Shown here one piece after another: positions 23,056 to 46,229 of a DNA stretch of 64,000 nt. The position numbers and the translations under genes are program-made. Position 1 is the first letter of the stretch. Each line of letters begins with the position of its first letter. The DNA is from Bolinopsis microptera. Lineage: Eukaryota; Ctenophora; Tentaculata; Lobata; Bolinopsidae. The stretch lies in the NCBI RefSeq assembly GCF_026151205.1, contig NC_087073.1, positions 3,555,001-3,619,000 on the forward strand. Direction: 5' to 3'. Below the pieces are notes generated by a model that saw nothing but the letters and a program-made list of their open reading frames with translations, did not search any database and was not told where the DNA came from.

Positions 23056-26000
23056 ATGTCGGTTGGGGCTATGACTGGGATGATAGCAATTGACCCTAAG
23101 AAAGGGGACCGCGCTAACCTCCATCGTCCGCTCATGACATTTATCATGGGAGCTTTCCCGGAACAACAAGAGGTAGGTTGTGATACGCTATGTTACTATA
23201 CAATATACATTGTACATATCTATATTATCTATTATGTACAATATACATTGCACATTGTACTCGAACTTAGATTTCGTATGAGTTAGATATCTTATGAGTT
23301 CATTCCTTTAGATTCTCTTGTCAGTTGTCCAGGAAATGTAAGACACTTTTGTTTTGTCATATTACATAATTTATGTTTAAAACAAATAAAAATTCTAGAA
23401 AACATCTGATTAATGAGCACAATCTAAAATATTCCTGTTCTTCGAGCTGAAGAAATGTTATGTAATATCATCAACAATCCTATTATTTTCAGGAGATGTC
23501 ACTAGGAGTTGACGATGTAAGTAAGATGAGAGAGAAGATTCTCGCGGTGGAGAAGTCGGAAAAGGGTGCCGAGCAACTCCTTAGATATTACCTTCAAATG
23601 TCTGCCATGGACTGCAAACTCCCAATAAACGAGAATCAGGTTTTTATTGTGCGAATTTTTAGTTAGCATCCAACATGTCTGCATATTTTAACAGTTTACA
23701 TTACATTCTTGTCAATGTAGTACTAGTCAATCGCTCGACCTAGTTTTTCACATAGTATAGCGTAGTCCGTGTTTAAAGTTTAGATATTGAACACTGGCCA
23801 AAAAGTTGAATTCATTGATCGAATGTCAGATATTCTAGATTCTAGTAAAAATAAATTATTTTCAGATACACGTGACCTTCACGTGGTACGATTCTTTCTA
23901 CAAGGATTCTGTGTTTAGCGGCAAACGTGGAAGTAAGTACTGATTATTTATTCTTTAGATATTTTCTAGATGTCACAATTTTGTCTTGACACGTGACAAA
24001 TTTCAGTAGAGACCAATCAGTAAAGACCAATCGATCGCGAAAATCAAATGTCAATCATATCAACATCAGTTTTCAAATAATAACTAGCCCAAACCTTGCA
24101 ATCTTGTTACCCAACTCGTTATGCGTTAATAAAAATAATATACAATATAAATTATGTATATATACATGCATGTTATTTTACTGTACCAACTTTAAACTTA
24201 TTCCTCATTTAAAAGACAATACATCCAGTGTTTTCACTTGTCATTGTTTACTTTTTAACTTACTCACCGAGATTATTACTATAAACTAATTTAAATACAG
24301 CTACACTATATTCAGTATTGTTGACAAGATTTGAAATTAGGCAGATGTGTATGACACGTGGTGTGTATGACACGTGGTGTGTATGACACGTGGTGTGTAT
24401 GACACGTGGTGTGTAATGTGTATGACACGTGGTGTGTATGACACGTGGTGTGTATGACACGTGGTGTGTATGACACGTGGTGTGTATGACACGTGGTGTG
24501 TATGACACGTGGTGTGTATGGCACGTGGTGTGTATGGAACGTGGTGTGTATGGCACGTGGTGTGTACTGTGTATGACACGTGGTGTATATGACACGTGGT
24601 GTGTATGACACGTGATATGGATGGTATTAAGATATTGAATAACAGTTGAATAAAGAATGAGCTGTGAGTGCGGACAGTAATAAGTTATCAGTGACAAGTA
24701 AATTACGGTAGTGTATCTACCACACAGTATCCCCCGATATCATTACTTCATCGTACACTGTCAAACCATAATTAACCTGGACTCTTGGGAGGTCCCACTT
24801 TCTCGGTAAAGTATGTAAGCTGATATTATAAGAAGGGATGAGATATTTTCACTGCTAAATCCCTCTGCAAATATGCACTTGAAGTTTTTGGCTGTTTACC
24901 TGTAACATTGTATCCGTGCAGGCGCAGCTAACAGTTTGTATGAGCGTTCCTGTGTTCTGTTCAACTACGCCGCTGTAAGTTCACAGATAGCAGCTTCTCA
25001 GAACCTTGACACTGACGACGGACTCAAAATCGCTGCCAAATACTTCCAGGTACATTACAATTAAATGCATTTATTACATAATTATATACATTATAATTAC
25101 ATTGTGCTGTTAATCTTACGACTGCTGGTAAAGTGTTAGACTACTGATTTGGCCTTATTCAACATTCCAAAGTATCAAATTAGCACATTCTTGATAAATA
25201 TCACTGTTATCAGGTAGCGTCAGGAGCGTTTGCACAGCTACGGGACAAGTTGGTCCCCACCATGCAGAAAGTACCGACACCTGATCTGAGTCCTGAAGTA
25301 CTCGCTAGTCTTACAACCCTGATGCAGGCTCAAGCTCAGGAATGTATCTACATCAAAGCAGTTGCGGATAAGATGAAGGAGAAGGTTGGTGGGATACTTG
25401 ATTTTCAGTTTTTACCATTTTCATTTTTCATCAGACTCAACTCCTCAATAAGAACAGGAATCCTTATTTTCCTTATTCGATTTTCCCGCAAAATATTATT
25501 CTAGTGGATATATGTATATCTACTAGAATATATATAGATAACGCACTTTAAATAGCAAACATGATTCCATAAGAAAGCATCTTGTACTCCGCCCTAGCTG
25601 AGAAATAACGAGTAAATCCAACTTCAGGTGACTTGCAGACTTGCTGGTTCAGCTGCTGACTTCTACGGAGATGCGTACAAAGCCATGTCAAATGTAAACT
25701 TGAAAGGAACTAACTGGGACAAGTGGACGGCTATCTGCCTTGCTAAACAGAACTACATGTCAGGACTATCTGAGTACTACCAGGTTTGCAACTTCTTCGT
25801 TTCTTCAATAAATCATATAATAAATAATATGTAAAATCAAGTTTTAAATCTAGAAGAATAATAAAGTATCGTGTTTATATGATAAAATGAGACTTCCATG
25901 TGGAGCGAAAGACAAGACTTTTCTCTCAGTAGCGGAAAAGTATAATACTCACTCTTGCTGCTGTCTGAGCATCTCTTTAAATCTTCTTCTAGGAGTTTCC

Positions 26001-29000
26001 GTGATATTATAACAGAATATGTACGTTAAATAATAAGACGTGTGCAATGTATCGCAGAGTCTGAACGCTAAAGCAAGTAAAGCTATCGGGGAGGAACTAG
26101 CCAGGTTAACAGAGGCGCACAAGCTGCTGGGAGACGCTGTGAAACAGAGTGCTGGAAGCTTCGAATGCAAGGTGAGATTAACATAAGCTCTGGGGTTATT
26201 GATTATTTACTAACTACGTTCTAACTATCTCAGATCTGAAGTTTTCACGTTTCAGATTTTGAATTTGCTATTTACCTCTCGAAAACATCAGTAGCGACAA
26301 AATATTATACTGAAAAAAAATGATACACTCATTCAAGGTACGATTAAACAAATATTTTAACAAAAATGGGCATTTTAGCATAATATAACAATACTCCCTT
26401 ATCCAGGTCGTGTATGAATAATCGACCTTTAAACTTAAGGAGGGCCTTGCATTCGTTATTATTACTGAATAACTATATTATTATTATGGTTACGATATTT
26501 GATAAGTATGTGAATTTCTTTCTTTAAAAGAACTGACTCTCAACTAAATTTTTATCGAACAATCTTATCTAATCAATATAATTTAATATGCACTTTGTCC
26601 ATGATAGCATTGGTTGAAACTTAAGAAAACCTCAAGAGTTTTGAAGGCTTAGAGTTCATCAGACCTCGCTTGTAACTGCTCTTGGTGTGCCTGCTTCACT
26701 GAGATCTTCCGTACAATCTTTGTTTTCAAGTCCATTTCTATATTCAACTTCAACGATTGGTCCAGTCTAAGTTTTCTGCTTGTAGAATCACCGGCCGGCT
26801 TGGTCGTCGAAAATACTGGGTCCACTAGTATCAATGGTTCCTCCTCCATTTGCAAGTACATTGAGCTTTTTTGTTCAACGCTAGGATCCAGGTCCAGACT
26901 GTACGGGGACCCGTATACTTCCACCTCTCTCATTACCACCGCATACTGATCACCAAATTTGTTTGTAATAGACACTTTCTTAACAGGTATCTTATTATCG
27001 CATGTGAATTCGTACTTTTCCAATCTGAGAACGTATGGTTCGATTGAGCAATACACATCCGGTATGTTCTCCGGGTCAGTGTTCCGTAACGAAACATCCA
27101 ACCCGTTTTGATAGTACATACTGTGCCATATCCTGTCTTGAAATGCAGAGTGAGTGTAAACAATAACTTTGTGCACGAAGAAATCATGATCCATATCAAG
27201 TGAGAGCGATGCCTCAAATGAGCTGAAAACCTCATCAGAGTGGGCAAAAGTATCGAAGTTGCCATCAATAGCGTCCTCTGCACCGTGGTAGCCTAATGTG
27301 TACACTGAGGTGAGATAAGGATGGAACAACCGCAGAGCTCTTTCTCCCTCATCTTCCTTTTCTTCCTCATCTTCCTTTTCTTCCTCATCTTCCTTTTCTT
27401 CCTCATCTTCCTTTTCTTCCTCATCTTCCTTTTCTTCCTCATCTTCCTTTTCTTTCTCTCCCTCTGTTCCTTTCTCTTCTTGTCCCTCCGATTCAATCAT
27501 TATTATTATTACATCTTCTGTAGGTTCTGCAGTGGTACGAGGAGCATCACTGGCAGTAACGGAACCAAAATCACAATAAGGCACATAGCAAATTTCTTTT
27601 TGCAGTTGGCTCGAACTCTTGTCCCTTACAAAACACCATGGTCCTTTGTTATCTTGATCGGGGTTTCTGCAGTTGTTGGAATTCAGTCCCATTTCCTGGT
27701 CAAAGGGATCACCCTGACTGACTGAAGTTTCCCTCCACTCAACACACTCGCCATCTTTATTCCAATCTCCTCTAAACTTCACACCATATGGGTCGTACTT
27801 GCGGTCTCTACAGTCGCGGATTTCCTGTGTTTCCAAACGGTCTTGATAAACGTAGTCCATGCAGGGTGACTCCTTACATTGAATAAAGTTACCCTCTCCA
27901 CAGCACGACTTAGGGTTGTGATACTGTAACTGTCCGTATTCGCAAGCTGGCAATCCCACTTCACGCATTTTAGCCTTACTTGTTATCCCAGTCTGATCAG
28001 ATTGTTTCTGATCTAGAGCAGTAGTTGTTTCTGAGTTACAACAGTAGTCACCTGAACTAAACACAAACTGATGGGTCGGAGGGCACATGGAATCTCTCAG
28101 AGATCTGTATCTTCTTGTTACTGTGTCCCTATCCCCTATTTTAAGCCATTTCAAGGTCTTGCCAGCCGGCCACCATTTGTCCCGACACTCCTGACTCGCT
28201 GTATACTTAGACACTGTTACGACAGCTTTGCCCTCGCAGTATATCTGTAGTTTGTCGTAGGTTTTAACTATTGCCCATTTCTTAGGGAATTCCGTGTAAG
28301 CAGTATAGGCATTTTCGAGTTCACAGCTTCCTATTACGAACCTGAAAAGGAGCTTTTGAATAAGTCGAATTATATATTAAAGCTTTAAAGTGACCTGTTA
28401 TGACAGGTTTTGTAGATATCCCACATATAGCTGTAAAATAACGTGTAAAATAGCTGTAAAATAACATGTAAAATAACATGTATATATATATATATATATT
28501 ATATATACAGGATGGGCCAAAAGTCAGTGGGCATACGTTGGCCTTAATAGCTCAGTCACTGAGTGACCGATTGAAATAATTCTTTCTGGTACGACTTACT
28601 ACCACCACTGGTTCGAGGAATTTGTCAAATCAAAAATATTCGAGTTAATTGTTTTCAAATGAAGGTTCATTTTTGCATTTATTTGATAATTTGGATAGTC
28701 GGATCGAGCTAAATTTTATTTAATTCTGTTTGGCCATTCGAATTACGTTTGTCCTGAAAAAAATTAGAGTACTAGAGCTTCTCAGATGACCGAGATACGA
28801 AGCATATTGCATAACGAGTTTATTCATTACATGTGATCAGGTGATTGGCTTACCTGATCACGTGATAAGATCACCCCGTTTACCACCCCATTAAACATTA
28901 TGGGAATCGTTAAGGCTGCCCAATTAAGGTGTCGTGTCACGGTGTCACATAATCACCCAGTCAATTTTGTTAACGAGATACACAAAATGCTTGATAACGT

Positions 29001-32000
29001 CGTCATTTCTAATCCGTTTCACGTCATTTTTTCGGATCAGATGCAAAATTAAATAATCTACCGTCTCTGAAAAAATCAGGCGTCCAGCATGTTCAGAGAG
29101 AACAATATAGGTGTTTTAATTTTGAATGGGCGTATTCTAAAATATTTGAATTTTCAAATTTTGACGACAGAATCCTCGAACCAGAAGGTACAGTATGTAT
29201 TATTATATATTACGAAGGGATTGATTGTAGCAAAAACTGTATCTCACAATCTAATATCATATTTTTAAACATCAGGAAACAATAAAATATTCCAAATGGG
29301 GCTACTTGTTGTAAAGAATGTGTATCACTGCGCCTTCACTATCACGGTTATTGTCGTCACTAAAGTGTAGATTCACGTGACCATCTTTACTGGGCGGTAC
29401 TGAAGTTTCCAGTTCAAGTGGTTTATTGTCGATATTAAAGTGAACATATTTCCCCTTGTGTGCGCGTTCCCAAAAACGTTCCCCTAAAACGGGGCGGTTT
29501 AGGAATGTTATCAGAAGAATGATAGCAGTTATCATATTCTTTTGTCAAATTTGTAGACTGTAACGAATAACGAAACGACTTGTTGTCAAATGACGAACTC
29601 AGATAACATTCTCCACTTTACGTGCATTTAACCTTCAGATCGAAGGTTTTCTGCATGTTGAAATTGTAACATTTAGCTCAGTGATACTGTTGAAATTGTT
29701 AATTTGTTTTATTTAAAGTTTGATTTTGAAGTCCATTAACAGGGTGTTAAGTAAAATGTATTTTCTGGTAAGGAATAGGTGTGACTTTGTTGGAATCACC
29801 CTTTTAGTATCCAAAATTTACGTGACGTAGTTTGATGAATCATGCGAGTTCAGTAACAAAGTTGGTTATAGGTTGGAATAAGGCCTAAGGTCACAGGAAA
29901 GGTATGTGAAAAATGTTCACACTGTTTTCAGATTACACTCAGCAAGTTTACTTGAAAATTCTTTGATCTTTTTTTAAGAGAAAACTATCTGTGCAGTGTT
30001 AACGATAAATCAATCAATTTAATCATGATTTAATTGCATTTGTTTGTATACAGATTAACGTAATGTGTGCTGAACTGTTCATGATGTTTACACATGACGC
30101 AGTATCATGTAAGCTTGTACATACAATGTACATCCACAACAGACATCACACACTTTTATTTTTATCATTATGCAATTGAATTTTCAAATTTTAAACTACA
30201 GTGAAGGAGCAAGGGTGCCTGATTTAGTTCCGCTATATCAATACAGACGACATTGATTGATAAAACCACATCTGCAAAATTGGTATTTTTCTATTCAATC
30301 AGCAATAAAAGAAGATTGAACTTTTATTTTTCCTTCAGGATATCCTATCCAAAGTGGACCGAGCTCAAGCAGCAGCAAAGAAAGATAACGAATTTATTTA
30401 TCACGAGCGAGTGCCCAACATATCCGACCTGCCGGCTGTAGGACGAGCTCCTGTCGCTAAACCTACCCCTGTAGCAACCGAACGTAGGCATTAAATATTT
30501 TCCGTTTATTTTTACAAGTTGTGCAGAGGTTGGGATGATGTGGTATTCAACACAAAAATTAAGATGTTATGAAAAATGTGGCGTGTTTGAATTTAATTTA
30601 ATCTTGTTTCGCAAATTTATTTCTGACCATTTAAAAAACATGTTAATTAACGAACTAATGTTTTCTCAGTTGAGGGGTGGTCGGACGTGTTCAACAAGCT
30701 GGTGCCTCTGAACGTACAACAAGCCGCCACAATGTACGCCAGCAGAAAAGATCACCTCATACACTTGGAGATTACTAAGCTGAGGGAGGCAACTAATCAG
30801 CTCAACAAGTAAGATGATTTTTGTGCTCATTCTGTCTAGATATGAGTGTTGTTATTTCTTGTAGGGGGATGTTTGGAGCCCCCGAGTTGCCAAATAACCG
30901 TTCAACCTGTCATACTAGGGATTGTAAGCGACTTTATTCCAAAGAAGGTTTGCTAGGTGAACTTACTTACGAAACTTTCAGTGCAATGAATCAAATGAAT
31001 CTGCCAGCTGCAATAGAGGATCTCGGTGGTAAAGAAATTCCTGTTTCTCTTATCGAAAAGTCCGGTGACGTAAGAACTAAAGGTGGCCTCATGTCTCTAC
31101 GACAATCATTTGATGAACTGCCTCAGCTTTTGCAGCGAAACGAGGAAATTATTAGTAAGTTACTTTGTTTGTGAACAACTAATTGGAACACTCCTGTAAT
31201 CGTGAACAATTTAAAAAGTTTTCAAAATACGTTATAAATGCTCTATTTTCTATACTTGTCATTCATAGCCGAGACACTGAAAGAGTTGAATGCCGAAGAA
31301 GCTTCCGACAAACATCTTCGTGGGACGTTTGGTGCAAAATGGAACCGAACTAAAAGTGAAGACTTGACCAAGAGTTTTAAAGACCAGGGAGATAAATATC
31401 AGGTATTTTGTTTGGTCAACTTTTCCTCAATTTTTCCTCTCTGGAGTTTTCAGGAAATTATTCATTTGCTTGTTAAGATCGATAAACAGTTATACGTTTA
31501 GGTTGAGTTTGATCATGCTTCATAAGCGTTACGTAACTTCTTTTGATATGCGTATAATTGTCCCCAAGTTACGTCATTTAGCTATGAGATCACCGTAACC
31601 CGATTCCTTACTTCAGAGTATATTAACGAATGCCCGTAATGCTGATAAGATTGTTCGAGAAAAGTTCGAGACAAACATCAGAGCTATTGACATTCTGTCG
31701 AAGGACGAGGTAATCTATTATCTAACCTGAAAATAATTTAATTATCTTTAGTTCATCACGTACAAACCGTGACATCACAATCAATATAAGCAACGACTGG
31801 TATTGAAAACAAAAACGAAATTGAAAAGCTCGAGCATTGACGGCGCGCGCGAACGACGAATGGGAACTTAGTATTGTGAAATTATCTTCTTGCAGCCGCT
31901 CCGTAGACCTTGTTGTTTGTGATTCGATCGTTTTCCATACTTCTTGCCTTCGTTCATGAGATCGACACAACGATGGCCGCTCTTATTTTAATTATATCAG

Positions 32001-35000
32001 CACTGAGAACTCAATCGAAAAGGTGGGCTCATTTATAAAGATGGGATTGCCAGATTACGTAGCCGCTGATTCCATACAAGTAGAACATGTACCACGTGCT
32101 CGTTGGCATTTGTACTTAGTTTCACTAGTAAACGTTACAAAACTTCTAAACTCACTTCCAACATGAGTCTATCGACTCTTTGGATAGGAGATATCGTATC
32201 AAAAAGATAACTGATGTGGAGCATATCAGGATCGAAAGTAAAGTAAAGTAAAGTAAAATTTATGACATCACATCATCACACATGTCTACAAAATATCATC
32301 GCACTGTGTGCAAAAATATATAATAAATATTTCCCCACCAAATCTCTTGGTTCCTGATTCATCCACAGAAGGTGGTAGTAACTTTGCTCTTCCAATAAAT
32401 TACAATTTTGGCTGTAGAGTTCCATTCGGTGTCAGTAATTAATCCTTCTTCAGAGCACACTGATTGACAGTATACCAGTAGGAGGAGCTCAATCCTTATC
32501 CGGACAGGGGCAGAAGGTAAGTTTATTCTGGAATCAGAGATTTTCATCACTTCTGATTTCGTTACGTGGCAATGTAAATGCAGGCTTCTTCTGTATAACT
32601 GTTAGTGATTACAGTCAAATCTTTCAGGCAGTAGCGTCCCTCAAATCGTTTATGGATCAGATCAAGCTTTTGAAAGGAGAGCGGGACGCACTTGAACAGA
32701 AGTTTAAAGCTGGTGGTGACACTGAAGAAATAAGTAAGACTGCTATTTTATGACCGTCTTTTTGTAGAGTATCGATATCGGCAGCCTTCGTGAGAGTTTA
32801 TTGTCTTGCAATCTGCATTGATATTTGATATTTGTAGGGAATCTTCATCAATTATTTAGTAGTAATTTTGTTACTACGTAAACTATTTTCAGTCGAGAAG
32901 TTTTCACAGCTGAATACGGAGTCGAATCTGTTCAATGATGAAGGACTGAGCACGGAACACTTAGAAAAAACATACGGACCTCAACAGGCAGCAGTGGTGG
33001 ACAGTGTCAGGCAGCAGGACGAACTCATCGCAAAGATTACGGTTAGTTTCCTCTCACATCGTTCCACTGTCTGAACGATCTCAAAGTACATTTCCTATTC
33101 AAATCTATCTTTTTAGACAAATCAAATCTTCCACTTCCCTGAAATAACCCTCCATTTCTAGTGTGCTAACGACGAGTTCGTACAATCGAAGACCGGCGCT
33201 ACTTCAGACCCTAGATCTGAAATGATGAGCGAACTGGCCCAGGGTTATGATGCTTTCATCGAGTTGATGAGCAATTTAGCTGAGGGTACCAAATTCTACA
33301 ACAACTTGACCAAGATTCTCACTACTTATCAGAGTAATGTCAACGACTTCATTTTGGCTAGAAACACCGAAAAAGAGGATCTTATGAAGTAAGCCTTCTT
33401 GGTCAAATTTATGATACTCAGTTGTAAAATAAACTTTTGATGATTGATTTCATAATTTAACTCGATGTTAAAGCTTGAACCAGGGGGGGGGGTCCACGTT
33501 AAAAAAGTTAAATTCTAAGATCGAGATCTTGGAATTTAACATTAATTACTTTAACTTTTTTAACTTTTTTAACATAAATTAAAAATCAGATTTTGGCTGA
33601 CTAATCGGTTCAAATTTTAACATAATTACCCAAATTAAACTCAATTATGAGTGTTGACCTTTAGTACTAGTAGTACCTCGCTCTTGCAATTGTTTTCTGT
33701 AGTTGTAACTGATTTGATAACTCATACAAAAAAAACACCTTGTATCTATATATACACATAATTGTATAATTTACTAATATAATCATTCATATAATAGGAA
33801 AGAGCAATTGTCGGCCAACCACAAGTACACAGTTGCAGTAGTGGTCAATGGGTTGGAATTGCGGGACAGATTACAGGTAGTAGCGAATGCTATTGATGCC
33901 AAGTATAACGGGACTTCAGAAACTGGGAAGGAGTGGGCAGAGTATTTGGGGGATGAACATTACAGTCAGACTTCAGTCGGGACCCAAGGAAATGGCTCGC
34001 AGCCCGACCAATACTCATTAGAAGGGTGGCTGTCACGATATGGTCTGGAATGTTACACGGAACAGTTGGAAGAGGCGGGATTTGGATCACCCAGTCCAGT
34101 AATCTCCAGTGTGTTCAGGAAAGTGACCTGAACAAGTTGGAAATATTTGACAAATGTCATCGGCTGACTATCCTGCATGCAGCCAAACGGATCCTTATTA
34201 GAGGAGTAGCTAATATCGTGAAGGGAGAATGTTAGAATCCACGAAAATAACATCCCCTGGCCCTCCTCGTCAGGAAACACAAATTGTATTGATACTTTTA
34301 TAATAATAATAAATAATAGGAATTTATACATCGCTTTATAGCCATAAAGAACTCAAAACCCAAAGATTCAGTTCAAACCATCTAAAGCGACTCATGAGTA
34401 ACATGTACATAAGAACTTATTTTTATGAAGTATGGATTTTATGAGAAAGGTAGTTTACATGATACTTATACAAATACGTTTTCAAAGAGATGAGTTTTTA
34501 GTTTCTTTTTAAATAAGACGATATCGGTTAGTGTTCTCAATTGATAAGGAAGCTGATTCCAAACAGAGGGTCCGCAGTAGCTGAATCTTCTCTCGGTTTT
34601 ACCATAGTTTGAAATAGGGGGAACATTTAGGAGGAAATAGTCTTCTTCAGTTCTTAGTACACGTACAGGTTGACTCTTGATGTCAATACATTTGGTGATA
34701 TACTCCGGCGCTATGTTGTTGACCCAATTGAACACGGTTAGAGCAATCTTATACTCTATTCGTTGTCGTATTGGAAGAAAATGGGCTTTTTTCAGGAATG
34801 GAGTGACACAGTCCCATTTTTTGATAGCTTTCCAACCAAACAAGAATCGAACACAGGAATTTTGTACCTTCTGGAGTTTCTTTATGAGAAGATCGGGTAA
34901 ACTGTATAATCTAGTCCATTGCAGTAGTCTAGTTTTGAAAAGATCAAGCAGTGAATGAGCTGTCTTTTTAGATCATAGTTAAGCTTTGAGCCTATAACTC

Positions 35001-38000
35001 GAAGGTTCCTCAGATGGATGTTGCAGTAACTGATAATTGAATTTATTTGATCTTCAAATGTTAGGAATTGATCAAATAGGACACCTAAACTTTTCACTGT
35101 GCGGGATGCATCCACAGGGTCAGCTGCATTGTCAAACTGTATTGAATCGACTGGACATGAAGAGTAACTGTTCTTGGTCTGTACTACAAGAGCTTCTGTT
35201 TTGTTTTGGTTCAGTTTGAGTTTATTTTGGGTCATCCAGGTCTTAATATCTTCAAAACAATTTGTTATTCTCTCTTCGATTGTTGACAGATCTCGAAATA
35301 GTGGGTTAAACTCAATGTACAGTTGAGTGTCATCTGCGTACATGTGGATGTTAAATCCATGTCTCTTTGCGATCTGGTTGAGCTCCTTTGTGTAAAGTAT
35401 AAACAGAATTGGACCTAGGATTGAACCTTGCGGGACTCCAATTCTAAGGAAGCATCTCTTTGATCTTCATTTATCAATAGTTACTGTGAAGGATCTGTTA
35501 TTAAGGTATGATGTAAACCATTCGAGAACAGTACCTTCAAAACCAAAATCCTTTTTTAGTTTTTTTAGGAGCAAGTGATGATTTACAGTATCAAAAGCAG
35601 CACTGAGGTCCAAAAGGAGGAGGATAACCTTGCTTTTCATGTCACTGATACAAAGAAGATCATTGTAGATGGTAAGGGTTGCAGTTTCGCAGCTATGATT
35701 TGACCTATAACCACTTTGATGCTCAGCATGAAGATTGTGATAGTCAAGATGTTTGGTCATCTGTTTCTGGACACTCTTTTCAATGAGTTTCGAGAGGAAA
35801 GGTAAGTTACTAATCGGTCTATAGTTGTTGAAGCTATTGACATCTCCTTTATCATCTTTGATGGCTGGTCTGACAAGAGCACTCTTTAGGACTGACGGAA
35901 ATTTTCCAGTGACAAGTGAGTCATTGATAATAAATGACTCAATTGGTTTAACTTCATTAAAACACTGCATTAGAAGTTTTAGAGGGATGGGGTCCTCTTC
36001 ACATTCTTTTTTGTTAAGGTCAGAAAGAATCTTTTTGAGATCATTGTCGCTTATGGTTTTAAATTGGCTCCAGGCTTCACCTTGAAATGGTTCTGAGTGG
36101 TCAAGTAGAATGTCAGCTGCAGTATCATTGTTAATGGCAGAGTAAATCTTTTCCACTTTATCATTGAAAAACTCTTTCATCTCCTCACATAGAGTTTAAA
36201 AGCAGGTTTGTTATTAGGCTTTAAGTTTTTAGATATGTCCCGATCCATCAGCTGATTAACCATTTTGTAGGTATCTTTTTTATTGTCCTCACAGCTTTGC
36301 AGACGATGTTCATAGTATAGCTGTCTAGTGGTGTTTATAACTGCCTCAGCATGCTTAACAGCTTTTTTATAGTCCAATTTTGAATCTGCAGTTTGTAGTC
36401 TCCGGTTGTCAAATTCAGCTTTTCTTCGTTTCCTTCTGGCAGTTTGACATTTTGTGTCCACCCACTTGCTTTGATCAGGATTAATGCTAAAACAGATAAG
36501 GGGAGCATGTTTATCAAGAATTCTGCGAAGTTCTTTGTTATAGAGTTCTGTGGCAGAGTTGCAGTCAATAAGATTCCACCCCCAATGTGTGTTGAACTGG
36601 AAATATGCTGGATGAGGCCATAGTTTGATATGAGATGGATAAAATTTATCGTATCAGGATCAGTGAGGTCTTCGACATGGATATTGAAGTCTCCAGCAAT
36701 GATCAGTCTACCTGGAAGGTGAGTTAGACTGTCAAGATATTCATCAAATTCCCGTAAAAAGTCTGTCATTTTGGACATTTTAGCCGTACAAGATCGATAG
36801 ACACAGCAGAAACGAAGAAGGTCATTGGAACTTGACTTCAGCACACACTCAACATGTTCGAAGGATTTATGGGTCTTTGTAGGACGTTTATTGAAGCTAA
36901 GATCTTTCTTAAAGGCAATAGCGACACCACCTCCTCTACCAGCTCTAGATTGGTGAACAATATTATAACCTAGGTCTTTAATTTCCGCTATTTTTGACGT
37001 ATCTCCCTTACGTAGCCAAGTTTCTGTCAGGAAACAGGCATTGATATTGGAGTCAGACAGTTGCTCAAATACTTGTGCAGTTTTATTACATAGTGCAAGT
37101 GACCTCGCGTTAAACAGTCCGACATTTAGGTTGAGAAGCGTAGTCTTTACATGTTTTTTGAGTACTCTGTTCTTTGTCGAAGACTCTCTTTCTCCAGCAT
37201 TATTATGGGACAGTTTTCAGCACCAGAGTGATGGGTGTTACAAGATTCTCTGTATGATTCATAAGTGGAGTGTGAGCAGTTGGTGCATCTGTGACTTCTT
37301 CTGACCTCTTTGTAGGGACAAGCCCGGGTTATGTGTGATGCACTACAATACATACAAATAACATCAGTTTCCTTGCATGAAATGTGTCCCAGTTTCTGAC
37401 ATCGGAAGCACTGCTTAAGATCAAATCTATCAACTACTTTACATCTGGAATTTCCTATGTAAATGGACTGATTGTTTAACAGGAAATGCCTTATCTCAGG
37501 AGACACTTTAATCCCAACAGTAGTGTAGTCTCTTCCATAATTGACATACACAACTTTAAATGTTCTATCATGCTTGGTCACCAAATCTTTAACATATTGA
37601 TTCTTTTCCAGAAGTTTCACTTCCATAAAGGTTTTAACCTTCTCTCGAAATTCAGGAACTGATAGATTTTCCTACATGTAATGACTAATGAACAAAAATA
37701 CCAACGCATGACCTAAAAGTAAACTAGTCTAGAATATTCACTCCATTGCAATTTCAACCCAAATTTGAATTTATGTTAAAAAAGTTAAACTTTCTAAGCC
37801 TGAATTTTGAAATTTAACATTAATTAATTTAACTTTTTAAACTTTTTTTAACGTGGACCCCCCCCTGAACCAGCAACCAAAACACTTAATATATTCTCAT
37901 AACTGTTTTAATCTGCGTAGGAGCTTACAAGGAAGTCTGGCTAACAAAGCTCCACCGACCAGACCAGATCCTCCTCAATTCCACCAACAAGCTGCCCAAT

Positions 38001-41000
38001 CTTGTAAGTGACAGCTTTAAATATCTGTGTGCTGTGGTGATTGCATTTCTTGATGATATTTACTATTTAAGGACGAATTCGCTTTATCTTAGATTCAATA
38101 TACCCCAGTTTTTACTGCCAGTATTTCTCGAATGAAGACCCCATTTTACTGGAAATAAATGAAATAGTAAGAACCAAGAATAATATTGTAACCTCGTGTA
38201 ACAACTTTACTGATCTGTAACGTGGCTGATTTGAAGCAAGAAGTCACTTTGGTAAATTATAGGTCTCTGGAATTCCGACTAACAATCCATATTATTTTAG
38301 ATTTCACTTCTACACTAATTTCACACTAAGACTTTCTATTAATATCCAATAACATACGACAAGCATCTTCACAAATTGAACAATGATTTACAGCGGCGGC
38401 AGCAGCCCCTCCTGCAGCTGCAGCTCCCTCATCTCCAGTGTACTCCACACCCGCTCCTAGGCCAACTCCTGGTATGATTATCAACCCTCATCTGCCTTAC
38501 TTTCGTCATCTTTAATCGCTTGCATCAATCTTAAAATTTGCACCTAAAAATCCTTTTGAGTTGCCAGCGTCGATTCTATTTTGATCTCTATAAATCAAAC
38601 GTAGCTTGAGCAATCAGTATCTAGATATTATTTTTCTATAAGCTACTATGATAATTTTATAATCAGCATTCAGCATGATGGAATGATATCGATATAATTT
38701 CTTGATATGATTGATTGTGTTGTAAAATCAAGTGAACCTTTTGATCATTCATAACTCATTCATAACTCATGATCATGCTGTTCCTCATTGTAGATATTTT
38801 GTCTTGTATAAATTGTAATTGTAATACATGTGTAGGTTACCAGCCGTCCTACAGCATGCCGTACGGTATGCCAGCATACAGTGGTTACTACACTTACCCT
38901 CAACCTGCTGAATACGGAAACTATCCTCCCACTGCACCGAACCCACCAGGACAACACCCACCAGGACAATACCCACCAGGGCAACACCCACCAGGACAAT
39001 ACCCACCAGGGCAACACCCACCAGGACATAACACCCGGCCTTGATACATGATTGTTTGTGTTGTAAAATCGATTGAACCTTTTAATCATCCATAAATCAT
39101 TCATAACTCATACTGTTGCCTCATTGTAGATATTTTGGTCTTTTGTAAATGTAATTGTAATACATTGATGTTAATTCATTCATTTCATTTCATTTCAAAA
39201 TATTGTTCTGAAAAATATGGTCAAGTGATGTTTGATAAGTAACGTACCTAGCTATGCACTGATGGCGGTTATAACTTACAATTGGCCCCGCATTCCTTAT
39301 GACTGTCGGGGGGGGGGGGGGGGGGGGTGTAACCCAAAAAAACCCAACTCCTACCCAAGAAAAGGTAATACTGGGATTGGGTTTTTTTGGGTTTTTTGGG
39401 TTTTTTAAACAAAATTTTAACAAAATTCTAGCCATTTCATTTGTTGTATTAAATGTGAATTATTCCCACTGGGTCTTACCTACCTGTTGTTCTCATGTCT
39501 TAACTTAATAGATAGTTTATATAAGTGTCTTTATATTAACAGTATGTTATCACGATAGCAAACAGGATGTCTAGTTCATCAAAATATAATCCATATGAAT
39601 GCAGAAAGTGGAAATGTGCCAAATGTGGCAAATGTGTTCTCCTGTCCATGTCATTGAAAGAGGCTATGACGAAGGTCAAAGCACATGACTTAAATTACTT
39701 GACTCAAGGCAGCTTCAGAGTCCGAGTCTCAATGATGTGTCTCCAAAGCTTTCTGTCCGCCATAAGCTCCTTAATCTCCCCAGTGTTCTTGAGTACGGTG
39801 TCACTTATTAGGTTATCGACGAAGGTGAGCGGTGGTCTGCCCCTCCCTCTGGTCCCATGGCTAGGTTCCCGAAGGAGAAGTTGGTGTACTGCCAGGTCAT
39901 CATATCGCTGGATCTCTGGATGTGCCCAGCAAACCTCATTCTTTTGGCCTGTATCTTCGAACTAACTCTTGGGAGTGATCCAAAGACCTCTTTGTTGGTG
40001 CGATGTTCTCTCCAGTCCACGTTTAGGGCCATCCAAAGCATTCTACTGTAACATCCGTCTATTCTTTTCAAAGATTCTGTCATTGTCCACGTTTCCGTTC
40101 CATACAGGAAGATTGATTCAACTGTAGCCTTGAAACAGACGGATCTTTAAATCTCTGCGCAAATTGGACCTCCATATAGCCTTCATTTTGTGGTAGGCAG
40201 CCCATGCCTTGGCCTTGCGTACCCTAAAGGCGTGCTCTGTTGTACTTGTCCAGGCTCCTAGGTAGAAAAAATCCTCAACTTCCTCTAAGGCATGTCCGTC
40301 CTTAGAAGTTATTGTGTGTGGCTCCTCTTCTACTAAATTAACAGTAAGATGCTTGGTTTTAGACAAAAGAGATTTTCTGCAGCTCCTCATCAGATGAGGC
40401 TTCTGTATGACTGTATCATGTGATGACAGTGAGCCTGCGCTTTCCATTGAAAGACATGGTGAGGATCCTTGCGCTGTAAGATTTTATAAGACTTAAATAG
40501 CCTCATATGCTGTCCTCGTCAAGATGATTCCTACTCTCCCATTAGAAGCGCCAGCTGCGTTTCTCCACGCAGATGAGGTCACTAGATGATTCCCTTTGTT
40601 CATCTTTTCTATCCTGGTAGGCTCAGAATGCACTACATGATGTTCTTGCAGGCCAAGGATGTGCAGCTTGCTTCGAGAAAATAGTTCTGCAAGTTCGATG
40701 CATTTGTGCTGTTCTCTGGCTGTTCTTATGTTAAATGTGCTAACCTTAGCAGTCCTTTTACATGATACAATACAATTGATGTTCATATTTTTTTGTTTGT
40801 TTTCTTGTTTGACTTTCTGTAGAAATAGGCTGTCGTGTTGTGGAGACCGAGTCATCAGCTTCTGTAATAGCAGCGTTATTACCCCGGCAACCACTTCCAC
40901 TAGTAAAATAAGAGGCTTTAACCCTTAAGCTGTTGATATACTTCATCTTGACTTTTCAGTTGGCTCACAATCCTGTGCAGTCCCCTGCACATTGGCAGTG

Positions 41001-43615
41001 GATTGTGTTCTTAACTCTTGCGCCACTAAAAGGTTAAGGGCATCCGCTTGAACAATAGCCATCTTTAACTCTCACCATAATATCTTGGATATCTTGAGCA
41101 TGTAATTGCACGAACATATGCTATACAAGACAAATGTGACACTTCCTTTTTCTACCCAACAGCATCAGTTGTAATCCTTACCCAATCGTCACCTGCTCAA
41201 GTGTGGGACTGTCCGATTTTATCCCAAAGCATAAGGAGGTTAGAGTGAGAACAGAGCCACACTTTAGCGGGGACTAACCCTTCCCCTGACTACCTCGTTA
41301 CCCGGTACCCCGGGCATAGGGAGCCGTATCCTGACTACCAGAGTGTGGTCCAGTCTAGCTGGGTCATAGTAGACTAGGTTGAACAGGGTAACAGCCAACA
41401 CCTCTTTAGCTACTGTGCAATCCACAGTAACGATTTACGAGTCTCAAAGCCTCTTGTAGACCAAAAGTTAAGGAGTCGATAGATCAAATTATTGAACTTC
41501 CGGGGCTCCCGTCGACCGTCCTGCCTTTAGCCTGGACCCCCTGTCCAGTATCCAGTCTTCACCACGCGGAGGTAGTGGCTTTCATCATGCTGTCCGATGA
41601 GTGTCTGGAAGAGGGCACCAGCAGGATACCCCTTTTCAAAGTTCTGGGAGCTTCACATCAGACCAGTCACCAGGGCTTCCACCCAGCTTCTATCCAGCGG
41701 TGACGCCTTGGGCCACCTAAGCTTCACACAACCATTGAAAGACCACCTGCCTACTTGTAAAAATTTTGATGATGCGATTATTACAGTCGAGGGTCTGATG
41801 CTGTACATTCTCAGTGTAACAGCTGACAACAGTTATCAACACTTTATGCCCTGGCTGTTTACATCCGATGCCTGCGAGCAAACTTTATGCTTTCCTGCGC
41901 ATAGGCCTCCATGCAGGCATTATAACTAATCTGTGTTCTAAGGATATGTTGGTTGGCATGGGCAAATCAAACCGTTCCCTCGAGCTTGATGCACTCGGCA
42001 AAAGTTTGATCCCTGTAACAGTTGCCCACTCTCGCAACAAGCTTGTTATACCGCATCCGAAAGCAGAGAAACTATTTAGAGGTAAAGATACTTCAATCCC
42101 AAGATTGTTACAAGCTATGAATAAGGGAGTCTCAAGGGGTAGAGAACTCCTTCAAGAACACTGTAACTTTGAAGGAGAGGCTTTCCAACCATCTTCTGAC
42201 GGAGCAGAGAGTGACGAAGCGGAAACAGATGATGAAGAAGAGGAAGTGGAGGATATTGACTCATCAGAGGAATGGGCGAAAATAGTAACTGTGTATGGTG
42301 ATGCTCTGCATCATGATACGGCTGTTGAGGTTTGCCTCAATGGAGGGCGAGATCGAATGCCATCCCAGTCAAGATTTTAGCGGCTCCAGGGCCATAAACA
42401 AGCGAAGATATCACTTAATATCACATGTGATCATGCAGCTGATGGTAACTGCAAGATTCTTTCAGTTGGAGATAGAGCATGGTTTCTGTAATGTAATCAT
42501 ATCTGGATGGCCAACTTCTTCTGAGCACATCAGTGAATAAAATACTGCTTTTGGGTGATATTTAAGCGATTATATCTATTGTAATGTTGTAGTGATGAAC
42601 CACAACAGTGATATTGTACTGATAATTGTTTTGCTAGGTGCCTACATGATTTTATTTCCTTCAAATGAAAAATTTGTAAAAAAACCCAAAAAAACCCAAC
42701 TCCTACCCTGAAAAAGGTAATACTGGGATTGGGTTTTTTTGGGTTTTTTTGGGTTACACCCCCCCCCCCCCCCCCCCCCACTGTCAGTAAAGACGCGTAT
42801 AATTTGATTGTGCCAACAGTGCATGTGGCATGTAAAATAATATACAGCCCTAGACAAATATTTTAAAAAGAATTTATTTACCTTTTCAAATTTTAAGCTG
42901 ATTTATCAGAGTCAACATATTAAAGCGTGGCGGGTGCGGAATCGCACTTTTCGCATAAGTTTTCCGCACTTTAATGTTGCTTCTGGACTGAATCATTGCA
43001 CTGTAAAGTGTAAGTGTTATTATGTATTTATTGTTTCAGCTGCACCAGCCCCGCTCCCCCAAGCCACTGCCTCCCCAATGGGGCAAGCACCCGCCCCCCA
43101 AGCACCACCCCTCGCTGCTCAGGGCGCACCCCAACAGTACAACTACGGTGGTACACTGCCAAGCGGAGGTAACGAATACTATCCAGCACTGTCATTCATC
43201 AGCTGTTTAACTAATCACAATTTGGGATACACCCAAGCACATTATCTTTAACTAAAGCTGGTTTCATCATGAAATTACTTACTAAATATCTCACAAGATA
43301 CCCCAAATCCCACACTATATAATTATAATAGTAAACAGATAATATCTCCCAGGTGTAGGTTACCAGCCGTCGTACAACATGCCGTACGGTATGCCAGCAT
43401 ACGGTGGTTACTACACTTACCCTGGACCTGCTGCTGCTGCTTACGGAAACTACCCTCCCGCTGCTCAGTACCCACCTGGGCAATACCCACCAGGGCAAAA
43501 CACCCGGCCACAATACCCACCAGGTCAAAACGCCGGAGCCCAGTACCCACCCGGGCAATACCCGCCCAGCCAATACCCTCCCGGGCAGTATCCGCCTTAC
43601 ACTGGCCCCAAATAG
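23056..43615 (+). CDS. PDCD6IP: ALIX / PDCD6IP, BRO1-V domain ESCRT adaptor (about 20 exons; 832- or about 891-aa forms)
   Basis: Exons: 23056-23172, 23493-23639, 23866-23932, 24922-25049, 25214-25384, 25628-25783, 26058-26171, 30339-30483, 30670-30808, 30982-31154, 31269-31402, 31617-31709, 32454-32516, 32628-32733, 32893-33041, 33162-33388, 37921-38003, 38394-38471, then either 38836-39044, or 43040-43168 plus 43359-43615. All joins keep frame. BRO1 domain (about 1-360): [56 protein letters not shown] domain (about 361-710): [40 protein letters not shown]. Then a Pro-rich tail. Known role of the family: recruits CHMP4/ESCRT-III through BRO1, binds YPXL cargo through V, and TSG101, ALG-2 and endophilin/CIN85 through the tail, in multivesicular bodies, exosomes, cytokinesis and membrane repair. 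The start may be the first or one of two nearby in-frame Met codons. Long introns are filled by a nested gene, a minisatellite and transposons. Confidence 0.95.
24344..24620 (+). repeat. 16-bp minisatellite in ALIX intron 3, CACGTG in nearly every unit
   Basis: About 16 units of TGTATGACACGTGGTG with a few slipped units. Fifteen carry the palindromic E-box CACGTG and one has AACGTG. The unit is not a multiple of three, so all frames stay open and give long, meaningless Tyr/His/Thr-rich ORFs on the minus strand. Confidence 0.95.
26649..29535 (-). CDS. Secreted kringle + fucolectin-like protein, nested antisense in ALIX intron 7 (2 exons, 640 aa)
   Basis: Exon 1, 29535-29306, encodes a signal peptide ([17 protein letters not shown]) and the start of an ectodomain; exon 2, 28341-26649, joins in phase 2 ([15 protein letters not shown]). 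The whole is 641 codons with stop. Residues about 25-135 form an unnamed beta-rich domain ([20 protein letters not shown]). A Cys-rich linker follows (about 160-245). A kringle spans about 254-333: [31 protein letters not shown], with the six-Cys spacing of the family. Next is a Glu/Lys-rich stretch (about 362-415) made by an 18-bp tandem repeat, then a fucolectin/F5-8C-like domain (about 420-570: [28 protein letters not shown]). No later membrane segment is seen, so it should be secreted. Kringles bind lysine-type ligands and fucolectins bind sugars; the function here is unknown. Lies wholly inside 26172-30338. Confidence 0.85.
27344..27462 (-). repeat. 18-bp coding minisatellite (Glu/Lys/Asp-rich)
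   Basis: Six or so copies of TCTTCCTTTTCTTCCTCA (plus strand), read on the minus strand as EEKEDE units of the kringle protein. Length is likely variable between individuals. Confidence 0.9.
28500..29200. repeat. Probable decayed DNA-transposon sequence in the kringle gene intron
   Basis: Begins after a (TA)n run with ACAGGATGGGCCAAAAGTC, the look of a mariner-type terminal repeat. No partner end was found and no coding frame survives. The rest of the intron shows nothing else. Confidence 0.3.
33798..34235 (+). pseudogene. SAM-domain-like fragment, intronless
   Basis: The frame from 33808 to 34131 reads [20 protein letters not shown], the first helices of a SAM domain, preceded by about 75 residues ([17 protein letters not shown]) without a known family. 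The rest of the SAM domain ([20 protein letters not shown]) continues in another frame, so the domain is shifted once near 34085. A TAG acceptor just upstream would splice in phase to ALIX exon 16 (LMK then KEQLSANHK). SAM domains mediate protein or RNA contacts. It could be a captured piece of a host gene, a processed pseudogene, or an ALIX side exon; the parent gene is not identified. Confidence 0.5.
34450..37650 (-). mobile_element. CR1/L2-like LINE, near full length, decayed
   Basis: Minus strand, in order: an ORF1-like part with CCHC knuckles (37626-37147: [26 protein letters not shown]), an endonuclease part (36844-36335: [14 protein letters not shown]), reverse transcriptase (36180-34882: [35 protein letters not shown], then [11 protein letters not shown]), and the usual C-terminal tail (34843-34466: [19 protein letters not shown]). 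The pieces lie in several frames, so the element has at least four frame changes and cannot be active. It sits in ALIX intron 16 against the direction of the gene. Confidence 0.85.
38706..39165 (+). repeat. Tandem duplication of the intron sequence around ALIX exon A
   Basis: 38706-38835 (before the exon) recurs at about 39048-39165 (after it): GTTGTAAAATC, TTCATAACTCAT, TCATTGTAGATATTTTG and GTAATTGTAATACAT are shared. The second copy has lost the splice acceptor and no exon follows it. Confidence 0.8.
38836..39044 (+). CDS. PDCD6IP: ALIX alternative last exon A (PTAP-bearing Pro-rich tail)
   Basis: Follows an acceptor TGTAG and joins in phase to exon 18 ([16 protein letters not shown]). 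It encodes [20 protein letters not shown], then [12 protein letters not shown], then five [10 protein letters not shown] units and HNTRP before TGA at 39042-39044. Codons at 38928-38939 spell PTAP, the motif bound by the TSG101 UEV domain; vertebrate ALIX has PSAP in its tail. The first 20 codons repeat those of exon B at 43359 almost exactly, so the two exons are duplicates. Use of this exon gives an 832-residue protein. Confidence 0.8.
39682..41590 (-). mobile_element. RTE-type LINE, internally deleted
   Basis: Minus strand: endonuclease start (40900-40493: [42 protein letters not shown]), then directly the C-terminal part (40447-39808: [47 protein letters not shown]). The reverse transcriptase core between them is missing. 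The GC-rich stretch 41200-41590 looks like its 5' UTR. The 3' tail resembles that of the LINE at 10187 (AAGTCAAGT-type), but the endonuclease is diverged, so it is another family of the same clade. Confidence 0.75.
41597..42380 (+). pseudogene. Broken reading frame of unknown protein inside element B
   Basis: Two overlapping frames read [20 protein letters not shown] and then [28 protein letters not shown] and a strongly acidic tail ([16 protein letters not shown]). It looks like the 3' part of a transposon-borne gene cut by the LINE, perhaps beginning with the Cys-rich frame at 39567. I do not recognise the family and it is no longer intact. Confidence 0.4.
43040..43615 (+). CDS. PDCD6IP: ALIX exons 20-21, alternative tail B
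   Basis: Exon 43040-43168 ([15 protein letters not shown] ... GGTLPSGG) joins exon 18 in phase and splices to the last exon, which starts at 43353 or 43359 (two in-frame AG acceptors six bases apart, adding or omitting Gly-Val). The last exon gives [32 protein letters not shown], then seven YPPGQ-like units ending YPPYTGPK, stop 43613-43615. Where exon A has PTAP this exon has PPAAQ, and no P-S/T-A-P occurs elsewhere in this tail. Resulting protein about 891 or 893 residues, close to human ALIX (868). Confidence 0.85.
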
Positions 43616-46229
43616 GAACTCGTGCATGACTCTATTCGTTTAACCAGAATCCTTCGGGCGGACTTGTGTTGCCTCTTGATCACCATGTTGGTAGAGTAGT
43701 GACTAGTGAACTGCTGATTTTTATTTTGATACGCGTGCATACTGCATAATGCCTTTCTTTTCAATTTAGCATTCATTTGTTGGGAATTTAGAGAAACCTG
43801 GAACAATTGGGTTGCCGAATATAAATGTTTTTCAACCATTTAGGACAATTAATTAATTAATTAATTAAAGGATAACCCAGTCTTTAACTTGCATTCAATT
43901 TGCTCAGTTTTCATTGCTTTGACAAATTGTTATCTTAATGTACCTTCTATTCACAGATATCTCTTGATTTGTATGGTTGTGGATTCGTAGACATGAATTT
44001 CTTCTTTCAGCTTTGTGGATACGACACATAGTACAATTTTGTTTAGATTATGTTATAGTTAATATATACTCTTTAAGTAAAATGTATTGTACATTTCTTT
44101 TTTGATTTGATTTTTAAGATTAATTGTGGATTAGCCCCCTTACCATAATGAGCGTGTTTTATTTGTATTTTGTAGTAACAGAGACACAGTTAAACCCTGA
44201 AATACTGTTCGGTACAGTAGCCAGATGAATTATAAAGAAATTTATGTGGGGCCTCTGGAATCTTATTCTGACGATCTAAATTTCAAGACATTTATTATGG
44301 TGTAAGAATTTTCACGAGAGCAATACCGTTAGGCATTCCGGTGTTCTACTGTATTGATATAGTAGTAAATATTCAATTTTTAGTTATCATCAAATATCAG
44401 AATTGTTAATATAAATATCACAAATATTATTACCAATACCTCTAATATCCTCCAAAATCTAATTTTACATTTCACGATTGAAGTAAAATGGAGAGTCAAA
44501 GCTAGCTGTGAACTTATCGGTGCAAAATATTAGCATCGAGATCATTGTTCGATTGACCCCTAAAGCAATGATGGCTAAACCGCATAGGATGTCTGAATAA
44601 TGACTGGTTTATATTATTATTAATTGTCCGCTTATAATCTTATGTACTAAAGAAAGTACATGCATGCAATAATCGGAGATGTTATAGGCATGATCGATTT
44701 AGGAGAGTGAACTGAATTAGATTTAATCATAATTTGCTATGACATCATTTGGTGAATGTTTCCACAAATATAAATCACTTCAAACATTACTGAACACATT
44801 CTTTATCAATGTAAACAGTCAAGGTCACAACCTATACTTTTCTTTAATAGTGTGAATTTTTCAAAGTCCATCATGCCTGATCATATCTGGTCCTTGGTCA
44901 TTTAAGAAGGTACTTCGTTCATCTGATTGCTGCACTGCGAGCTGGATTTATCTGTATTAGAATATGTGATCTCTCAGTTTTTCACATTGCTTCTGTGGGT
45001 ATTTTAGGCATGTTCATCTGGTTCATGTTAGGTACCATCATGTTGAAATGATGCATCGTTCGTGTTGTCTGATTCATCCTGAAATTGTTGGTATTGGTTG
45101 GTATTGGTAGCTAAAGATGCGAAAGACTAGCTTGGGTTGTACCTACTCGATCTTATGTTCATAACGTGTTACATCAGATTTTACCCAATAAGTAATAACA
45201 ATTTGAATGGACAATATATCACTTAAACATCTGGCCTTACTCTTGAGTCAGCAACATTGAATTACTTTGTACTCTGATCTCCCTAATACTGCGTAACGAT
45301 ACTGTACGGAAAAACGTGAACATTTTCCCCATTTTTCTACTCAAGAGTGTAATGTTAATTGTGTTTTCGTTAATATTGATGTAGTGTCAATTTAAGAAGG
45401 TGCTTTGCAGCTCTTGTAGCCGACTTGGCCGCATGACACCTGGGCATGTGATCAATCAGGCTCCCTTTAATTGGCACCGGGCGACCCCTGGGGCGGCCAC
45501 GTTACCAGATTTTATATTCTCGGATCTTCACATGGATACTTGCTACAGAGTGGACACCCTAATTAAATCGGGCCCGATCCGCTCTTGATTTTACAAGAAT
45601 TTTGGGGGCCGGTAATTTTAGCACATGTGCTGTGTGGCATGTGCCTGTCAGGCCCATTAGAGAGGAAGTATCTTTTGTTAAAACGTGGGGCGGACTCTTG
45701 GTCACTTGTATATTAGCACCTTTCTCACAATGGCCGATTGTGACTTGATTTGTCAACAAATCCGCGGCGTGAGCAAGATCTAGAGTTTACACAGGTCTCT
45801 GGAAATTAATTAACTCTTCAGTGTTTTGTTTGGATGACTGTCAAGTACGATAATTGGAGATAAATTGATCTGGACAGACGGTGCACGAGTTAAACTCAAG
45901 AAGGGTGTTGCAAAATTCCAATATCAAAATTACTACTATTGATTGCACGATATCCCATCCCTGATTTATTGGCACGATCCCTGATTCACCGGGATTTCCT
46001 TTAACCGGGATTTTCTGAGATCCACAAAAGCTAGACCGTCCAAAAGTAAACATAACATAACTATGTTAATTATGTTAATGAGTAAATTAAAACCCTGGTT
46101 TACTGGGATCCTCGATTTCCGGGGAAATCTGCTCAAATTGACATCTTGCCCAGATTTGCCTTTGGGGTTCCGGCTACTATAATATTGTAATCATAACTTA
46201 AGTGAATAAGAAAGAAGAAAAGTTCATAC
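43616..46229. other. Spacer downstream of ALIX, with last bHLH exon(s) not located
   Basis: AT-rich with a tetranucleotide AATT run at 43849-43868. A GC-richer island lies at 45405-45790 (CACCGGGCGACCCCTGGGGCG); it may be an old repeat. The final exon(s) of the minus-strand bHLH gene should lie here but no convincing acceptor and frame could be chosen. Confidence 0.4.

Follow-up and report, generated by a model that had tools for sequence, protein, structure and literature searches.

The predicted ALIX (PDCD6IP) gene of Bolinopsis microptera carries, within intron 18, a partial and shorter copy of its own last coding exon, bounded by two direct repeats and absent from a second, incomplete copy of the gene on chromosome C5. 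We put at roughly even odds (a probability of about 0.5) the reading that this exon, called A, is a copy of last exon B that was placed between repeats, was lost on C5, and is a candidate minor alternative last exon. Exon A encodes PTAP where exon B encodes PAAQ, and from the sequence a switch in TSG101 binding is possible; a conserved switch is not claimed.

The gene is complete as predicted, with 20 coding exons at 23056-43615 of the window, the whole 64-kb stretch of DNA that was analysed. The model was built by hand, with all junctions GT-AG and all frames joining, and genome searches covered the 264.65-Mb assembly of 232 contigs. A family search also turned up a glutamate-receptor open frame, for which the best solved relative is ML032222a, a receptor of the comb jelly Mnemiopsis. 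The coding exons of ALIX are as follows:

23056-23172, 23493-23639, 23866-23932, 24922-25049, 25214-25384, 25628-25783, 26058-26171, 30339-30483, 30670-30808, 30982-31154, 31269-31402, 31617-31709, 32454-32516, 32628-32733, 32893-33041, 33162-33388, 37921-38003, 38394-38471, plus strand: ALIX exons 1-18 (hand-built model, joining frames, match to human ALIX)
38836-39044, plus strand: exon A, candidate alternative last exon, 69 codons including one shared with exon 18, then a stop (gene model, alignment with B)
43040-43168, plus strand: exon 19, used only on the route to B (gene model, identical in the C5 copy)
43353-43615, plus strand: exon B, normal last coding exon, with PAAQ where A has PTAP (gene model, acceptor scores)

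In a structure-chain comparison, predicted residues 6-701 aligned with human ALIX (2xs1_A, E 5.6e-155), and ALIX chains outscored HD-PTP (PTPN23), Bro1 and BROX by far. A Bro1 domain followed by a V domain was confirmed by BRO1 and ALIX_LYPXL_bnd exon matches in the window. The two predicted isoforms, of 832 aa (exons 1-18 plus A) and 893 aa (exons 1-20), both end in a proline-rich tail and a stop, the tails being 122 and 183 residues long, respectively; both C-termini are phosphatase-free, as in ALIX and not HD-PTP.

Exons A and B lie where the sequence-only reading had placed them, with stop codons at 39042-39044 and 43613-43615, and the near-identity that it had reported for their beginnings is borne out: 93% over 84 nt counted from 38827 and 43350, with 6 differences, 1 of them upstream of the exon start. 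Across 222 columns, the identity is 79%. The match extends from GTGTAGGTTACC to the NTRP codons, after which A enters the downstream repeat. In the gene model, exon 18 joins A in frame, and exon 18 joins B in frame through exon 19, as had been claimed; the gene thus has two homologous terminal exons, each in frame with the upstream part and each ending in its own stop. This similarity is due to duplication, not chance, and exon A is, by alignment, the partial and shorter copy. B is the parent on four grounds: its greater length, the exon 19 that precedes it, its strong CAG acceptor, and its retention in the C5 copy.

Exon A sits in intron 18 between two direct repeats of 130 bp, R1 and R2:

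38701-38829, plus strand: R1, upstream direct repeat, just before A's acceptor (the GTGTAG copied from B), identical with R2 in 113 of 133 columns
39040-39165, plus strand: R2, downstream direct repeat, holding A's stop codon (repeat alignment); its right half is a dispersed genome repeat

Where B has its CAG acceptor and the sequence upstream of it, A has R1, and only the TAG remains. R1 and R2 differ by 9 substitutions in 122 sites (five gaps), and exons A and B differ at 5 of the first 75 exon nucleotides; this roughly equal divergence suggests that the R1-A-R2 unit was made in one event. A single copying event, for example replication template switching from repeat to exon B and back to repeat, could have produced the whole unit at once. 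The right half of both R1 and R2 is matched by at least 13 of the fetched dispersed-repeat copies, and R1 and R2 could also stem from two separate insertions of such a repeat.

The second copy of the locus bears on the history of exon A. The region C5:5786255-5791056 is a 95-98% identical copy, with gaps, of window positions 31847-45094 and holds exons 13-20. Two of the stretches missing from it are in intron 18:

38502-39257, plus strand: 756-bp segment with no counterpart in the C5 copy, containing R1, exon A and R2 (C5 matches jump from 38501 to 39258)
39306-42779, no strand assigned: mobile insertion that separates A from exon 19 and is missing on C5 (48-nt inverted arms 96% complementary; empty site on C5)

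The C5 copy also lacks the intron 16 insertion at 33484-37865. It shows a 7-bp deletion in exon 15 and three substitutions in exon B, one of which destroys the stop codon (TAG to TGG), and these two losses mark it as a decaying partial copy; exon 19 and, over the 101 of its 103 query bases that aligned, exon 17 match the parent without a difference. An origin as a haplotype duplicate was ruled out: the copy lies inside another chromosome-scale contig, comprises only exons 13-20, and has the 7-bp deletion and the lost stop of B.

Non-coding DNA differs between chromosome C2, which carries the ALIX gene, and C5 by 65 substitutions in 3522 sites, with 14 gaps counted over exons and introns together. 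Both the R1/R2 pair (9/122; Fisher's test on substitutions, p = 0.0007) and the A/B pair (5/75; p = 0.015) are more diverged than this, so exon A looks older than the C5 copy. Most likely, on a timing drawn from few sites and no outgroup, R1-A-R2 was already present when C5 was copied and was then deleted there. The part of the segment left of R1 has no other match in the genome search, which fits deletion on C5 better than insertion on C2, and the C5 junction holds a brief stretch of filler, similar by eye to the right flank and of the kind left by a deletion. Where the 756-bp segment begins and ends, the C2/C5 comparison revealed no clear target-site duplication, and no second copy was found in the assembly; on these grounds, transport of exon A by a simple mobile element was ruled out. 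The preferred history would thus run from formation of R1-A-R2, through copying of the 3' half of ALIX to chromosome C5, to loss of A from C5 by deletion.

To score the splice sites, an acceptor matrix was built from the gene's 19 acceptors, and the real acceptors were also scored leave-one-out. The start of B at 43359 given by the sequence-only reading follows a TAG that is present and scores 2.6; the likelier acceptor is a CAG ending at 43352, which scores 12.3 (7.6 when left out of the matrix). Exon B therefore probably starts at 43353, judged by these scores, and gains two residues (GV). GTGTAG is present before both exons, and the bases of B's CAG read CATG before A. Since that CAG is missing upstream of A, where R1 adjoins GTGTAG, exon A must use the TAG at 38833-38835. 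This acceptor scores 3.9, above 9 of the 19 real acceptors (leave-one-out), that is, at the median; 9.3% of 946 intronic AGs score as high. Five AGs within A's PPGQ repeats score higher, at 5.9-7.8 (exon starts 38965, 38980, 38995, 39010 and 39025), and the distance of each from 38836 is divisible by three; their use would therefore keep the frame and drop PTAP. In B, the choice between the CAG and the TAG, which are six bases apart (43350-43361), could yield a tail with or without GV.

The 3' ends of the two exons differ in their signals. No AATAAA or ATTAAA occurs from A's stop to 39447 (39045-39447, about 400 nt); among 12 hexamers looked for in the stretch between that stop and the mobile insertion (39045-39305), only CATAAA (39091) and AATACA (39159) were found. 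Past A, ATTAAA first appears at 39448 and AATAAA at 42536, in both cases within the mobile insertion. Exon B is followed by a candidate signal:

43864-43869, plus strand: ATTAAA, candidate poly(A) signal of B, the sole AATAAA/ATTAAA in 43616-45500, 249 nt past B's stop

Of the two terminal exons, only B thus has a poly(A) signal of its own, the ATTAAA. The idea that R2 is a retroelement 3' end supplying A with such a signal was rejected: R2 carries neither AATAAA nor ATTAAA. Among 13 aligned copies of the repeat family, 6 have AATAAA and none ATTAAA within 70 nt past the core; these 13 come from 20 loci drawn from at least 58 matches, with 40 of 145 candidates scored.

On the preferred reading, A may serve as an alternative last exon of minor or tissue-limited use. 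Splicing of exon 18 to A, followed by downstream cleavage, would give a shorter ALIX tail that contains PTAP, lacks exon 19 and has fewer tyrosines; in the default case, the exon 19-B tail without P[ST]AP would be made. The two predicted tails were compared at the following positions:

38928-38939, plus strand: PTAP codons (CCC ACT GCA CCG) in exon A (sequence, gene model)
43457-43468, plus strand: PAAQ codons in exon B (sequence, gene model)

A regular-expression search of both predicted proteins agreed with the earlier description of PTAP in A and PAAQ at the matching place in B: P[ST]AP occurs once in the A protein (PTAP, residue 795) and not at all in the B protein, which has PAAP at residue 763, spanning the exon 18/19 junction. 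Shuffling yields a P[ST]AP in 2.4% of trials for the 69-aa A tail and in 15% for the complete proline-rich region of A, frequencies at which the motif by itself argues only weakly for function. B fits the repeating QYPP pattern better, and we lean towards PTAP as derived and PAAQ as ancestral. Of the 17 differences between A and B in the 46-codon comparison, 4 fall in the four codons after the first P of PTAP (T, A, P and the next N), or 4 of 12 nt against 13 of 126 elsewhere (Fisher p = 0.042, for a place chosen post hoc); selection for the motif, locally clustered mutations and chance are all compatible with this pattern. The predicted tails also differ in composition: A has 11 tyrosines and 4 histidines, B has 17 tyrosines and 0 histidines. 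Exon 17, at the start of the proline-rich region, reads APPTRP, presumably the place that matches the 717-PSAP of human ALIX. In the motif check, the reduced ALG-2 motifs PYP and PXYP (PMC5037681, in part) occurred once in B (PQYP) and not in A, and GPP in neither.

A partner that could read PTAP is encoded in the genome. The search found one TSG101 UEV domain, which together with its neighbours matches the human TSG101 UEV (5vkg_A) at E 1.2e-35. In the alignment, Y63, Y68, N69, M95, P139 and F142 are the same, with V141 changed to L and S143 to A; these eight human residues are those we take to form the PTAP pocket, so that 6 of 8 are identical here. A pocket conserved to this extent makes this UEV a plausible PTAP reader in Bolinopsis microptera.

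The sequence-only reading had gone further and proposed that choice of last exon switches TSG101 binding on or off, so that, if A were regularly used, the A/B choice would set direct ALIX recruitment of TSG101/ESCRT-I. Two in-frame endings, P[ST]AP in only one predicted protein, a genome-encoded UEV with a largely conserved pocket, an intact A reading frame, and the post hoc clustering of A/B differences at the PTAP codons all speak for this proposal. The vertebrate precedent cited for it also holds, in that human ALIX docks TSG101 through 717-PSAP (PMC5037681, in part). Against it stand the lack of AATAAA/ATTAAA near A, the higher-scoring in-frame acceptors within A whose use would remove PTAP, and the pN/pS comparison below, in which no added constraint on A is seen. 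Passages of the same source (PMC5037681) describe the mammalian PSAP as dispensable when ALG-2 bridges ALIX to ESCRT-I and as also taking part in the closed form, and the former suggests that "on or off" may be too strong, and both together that the effect may be one of tuning. The repeat flanks, the C5 copy without A, and the missing standard poly(A) signal nearby lower the idea further, and we regard a functional switch as doubtful. The same doubt applies to the fuller proposal that A is used, that direct ALIX-TSG101 coupling would be set by splicing and 3'-end choice, and that PTAP would have arisen in the duplicate from a parent without it.

Alternatively, exon A may be a neutral duplicate in the intron, never spliced, whose open frame is due to chance and whose PTAP is due to drift. 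The roughly equal divergence of exons and repeats, the missing AATAAA/ATTAAA, the 9.3% of intronic AGs that reach A's acceptor score, and the absence of A from C5 would all be expected of such a copy, and over 46 codon pairs with 17 nucleotide differences, pN is 0.098 and pS 0.207, values that a constrained B and a free A could also give. The counterweight is the reading frame, which is intact in A and kept against B. In neutral-decay simulations on the R1/R2 clock, the 69 codons stayed open in 18.5% of runs at an indel/substitution ratio of 0.2 and in 2.0% at 0.55, and the 39 codons before the PPGQ repeats in 37.9% and 10.4%, respectively. Faster clocks taken from A/B gave 0-3.3% for the 69 codons and 0.1-14.9% for the 39. 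Neutral survival of the 69-codon frame was thus below 20% in each of six settings, though as high as 38% for the non-repetitive part. The intact frame was not accepted as proof of selection, since the PPGQ repeats have the look of homogenised sequence and the remaining, non-repetitive part does not decide the matter by itself. Taken together, the simulations lean towards constraint on A, and we consider it unlikely that A is a dead copy.

Later entry of the 756-bp segment into the C2 gene, after C5 had been copied and from an older, now lost copy of exon B, would agree with a C5 state that also lacks the intron 16 and intron 18 insertions, and A may then be specific to this individual or population, but no other copy of the segment was found in the assembly, there is no clear target-site duplication, and the filler at the C5 junction looks, by eye, like that of a deletion, so that we hold this to be decidedly improbable.

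Duplicated terminal exons are an already known kind of arrangement, and the ALIX case is a variant of it. Human capping protein beta likewise has homologous 3'-terminal exons in one gene; according to the part of PMC3228551 consulted, its poly(A) sites are multiple and it is a known splicing case, whereas ALIX exon A is a candidate last exon and has no clear poly(A) signal. Drosophila pip and PGRP-LC (3' choice), cases of tandem duplication with mutually exclusive terminal exons, share with ALIX A/B the presence of tandemly duplicated terminal exons in a single gene (PMC9013439, in part); pip is described there under untranslated regions, whereas the ALIX exons differ in a four-residue docking motif and A copies only part of B. 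The Serpin-1 gene of Pteromalus puparum, which also has duplicated alternative C-terminal exons in one gene, has 21 alternative exons, 16 of them with clear counterparts in a related wasp gene (PMC10513286, in part), against one extra candidate copy in ALIX. Mammalian ALIX shares the Bro1, V and proline-rich layout and a TSG101 tetrapeptide in the proline-rich region, but its PSAP is controlled by intramolecular folding, ALG-2 and phosphorylation (PMC5037681, in part), whereas the comb-jelly PTAP lies in an optional predicted last exon.

In the literature searched, mostly open papers, we found no description of ALIX-TSG101 control by last-exon choice and no paper coupling short linear motifs with alternative last exons. 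In PMC8393842, "alternative last exon" stands only in the reference list, and no ALIX last-exon pair is mentioned in the 12 of its 27 ALIX/TSG101 places that were read. If A is used, an ESCRT docking motif would have been gained by duplication of a last exon, so that a single gene would produce ALIX both with a direct ESCRT-I site and lacking one; comb jellies are often regarded as the sister group of all other animals. If A is unused, the locus still shows stepwise copying of a terminal exon, repeats that provide acceptor context and a stop, and loss in a second copy.

Several repeats in the region were also recorded. The arms of the intron 18 insertion contain 20-base G/C runs and AACCCAAAAAAACCC motifs and are themselves partly palindromic. 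None of its three ORFs has a Pfam match; the one at 39808-40146 (minus strand) resembles, by eye, a reverse-transcriptase tail. The intron 16 mobile insertion (33484-37865) carries a duplication of 8 bp (TGAACCAG) and inverted ends that begin with a run of G, and it encodes LINE-type endonuclease and reverse-transcriptase ORFs on the minus strand. The unit recurs at one place on C4 at a rounded 100%, and most of the other matches listed fall within about 34300-37671, a pattern suggesting that a LINE sits inside an inverted-repeat element and that the two moved as one unit. Finally, a long array at C13:3056089-3057442 resembles the PPGQ-coding repeats of exon A (75-83% similarity) and is perhaps part of another gene with a proline-rich tail.
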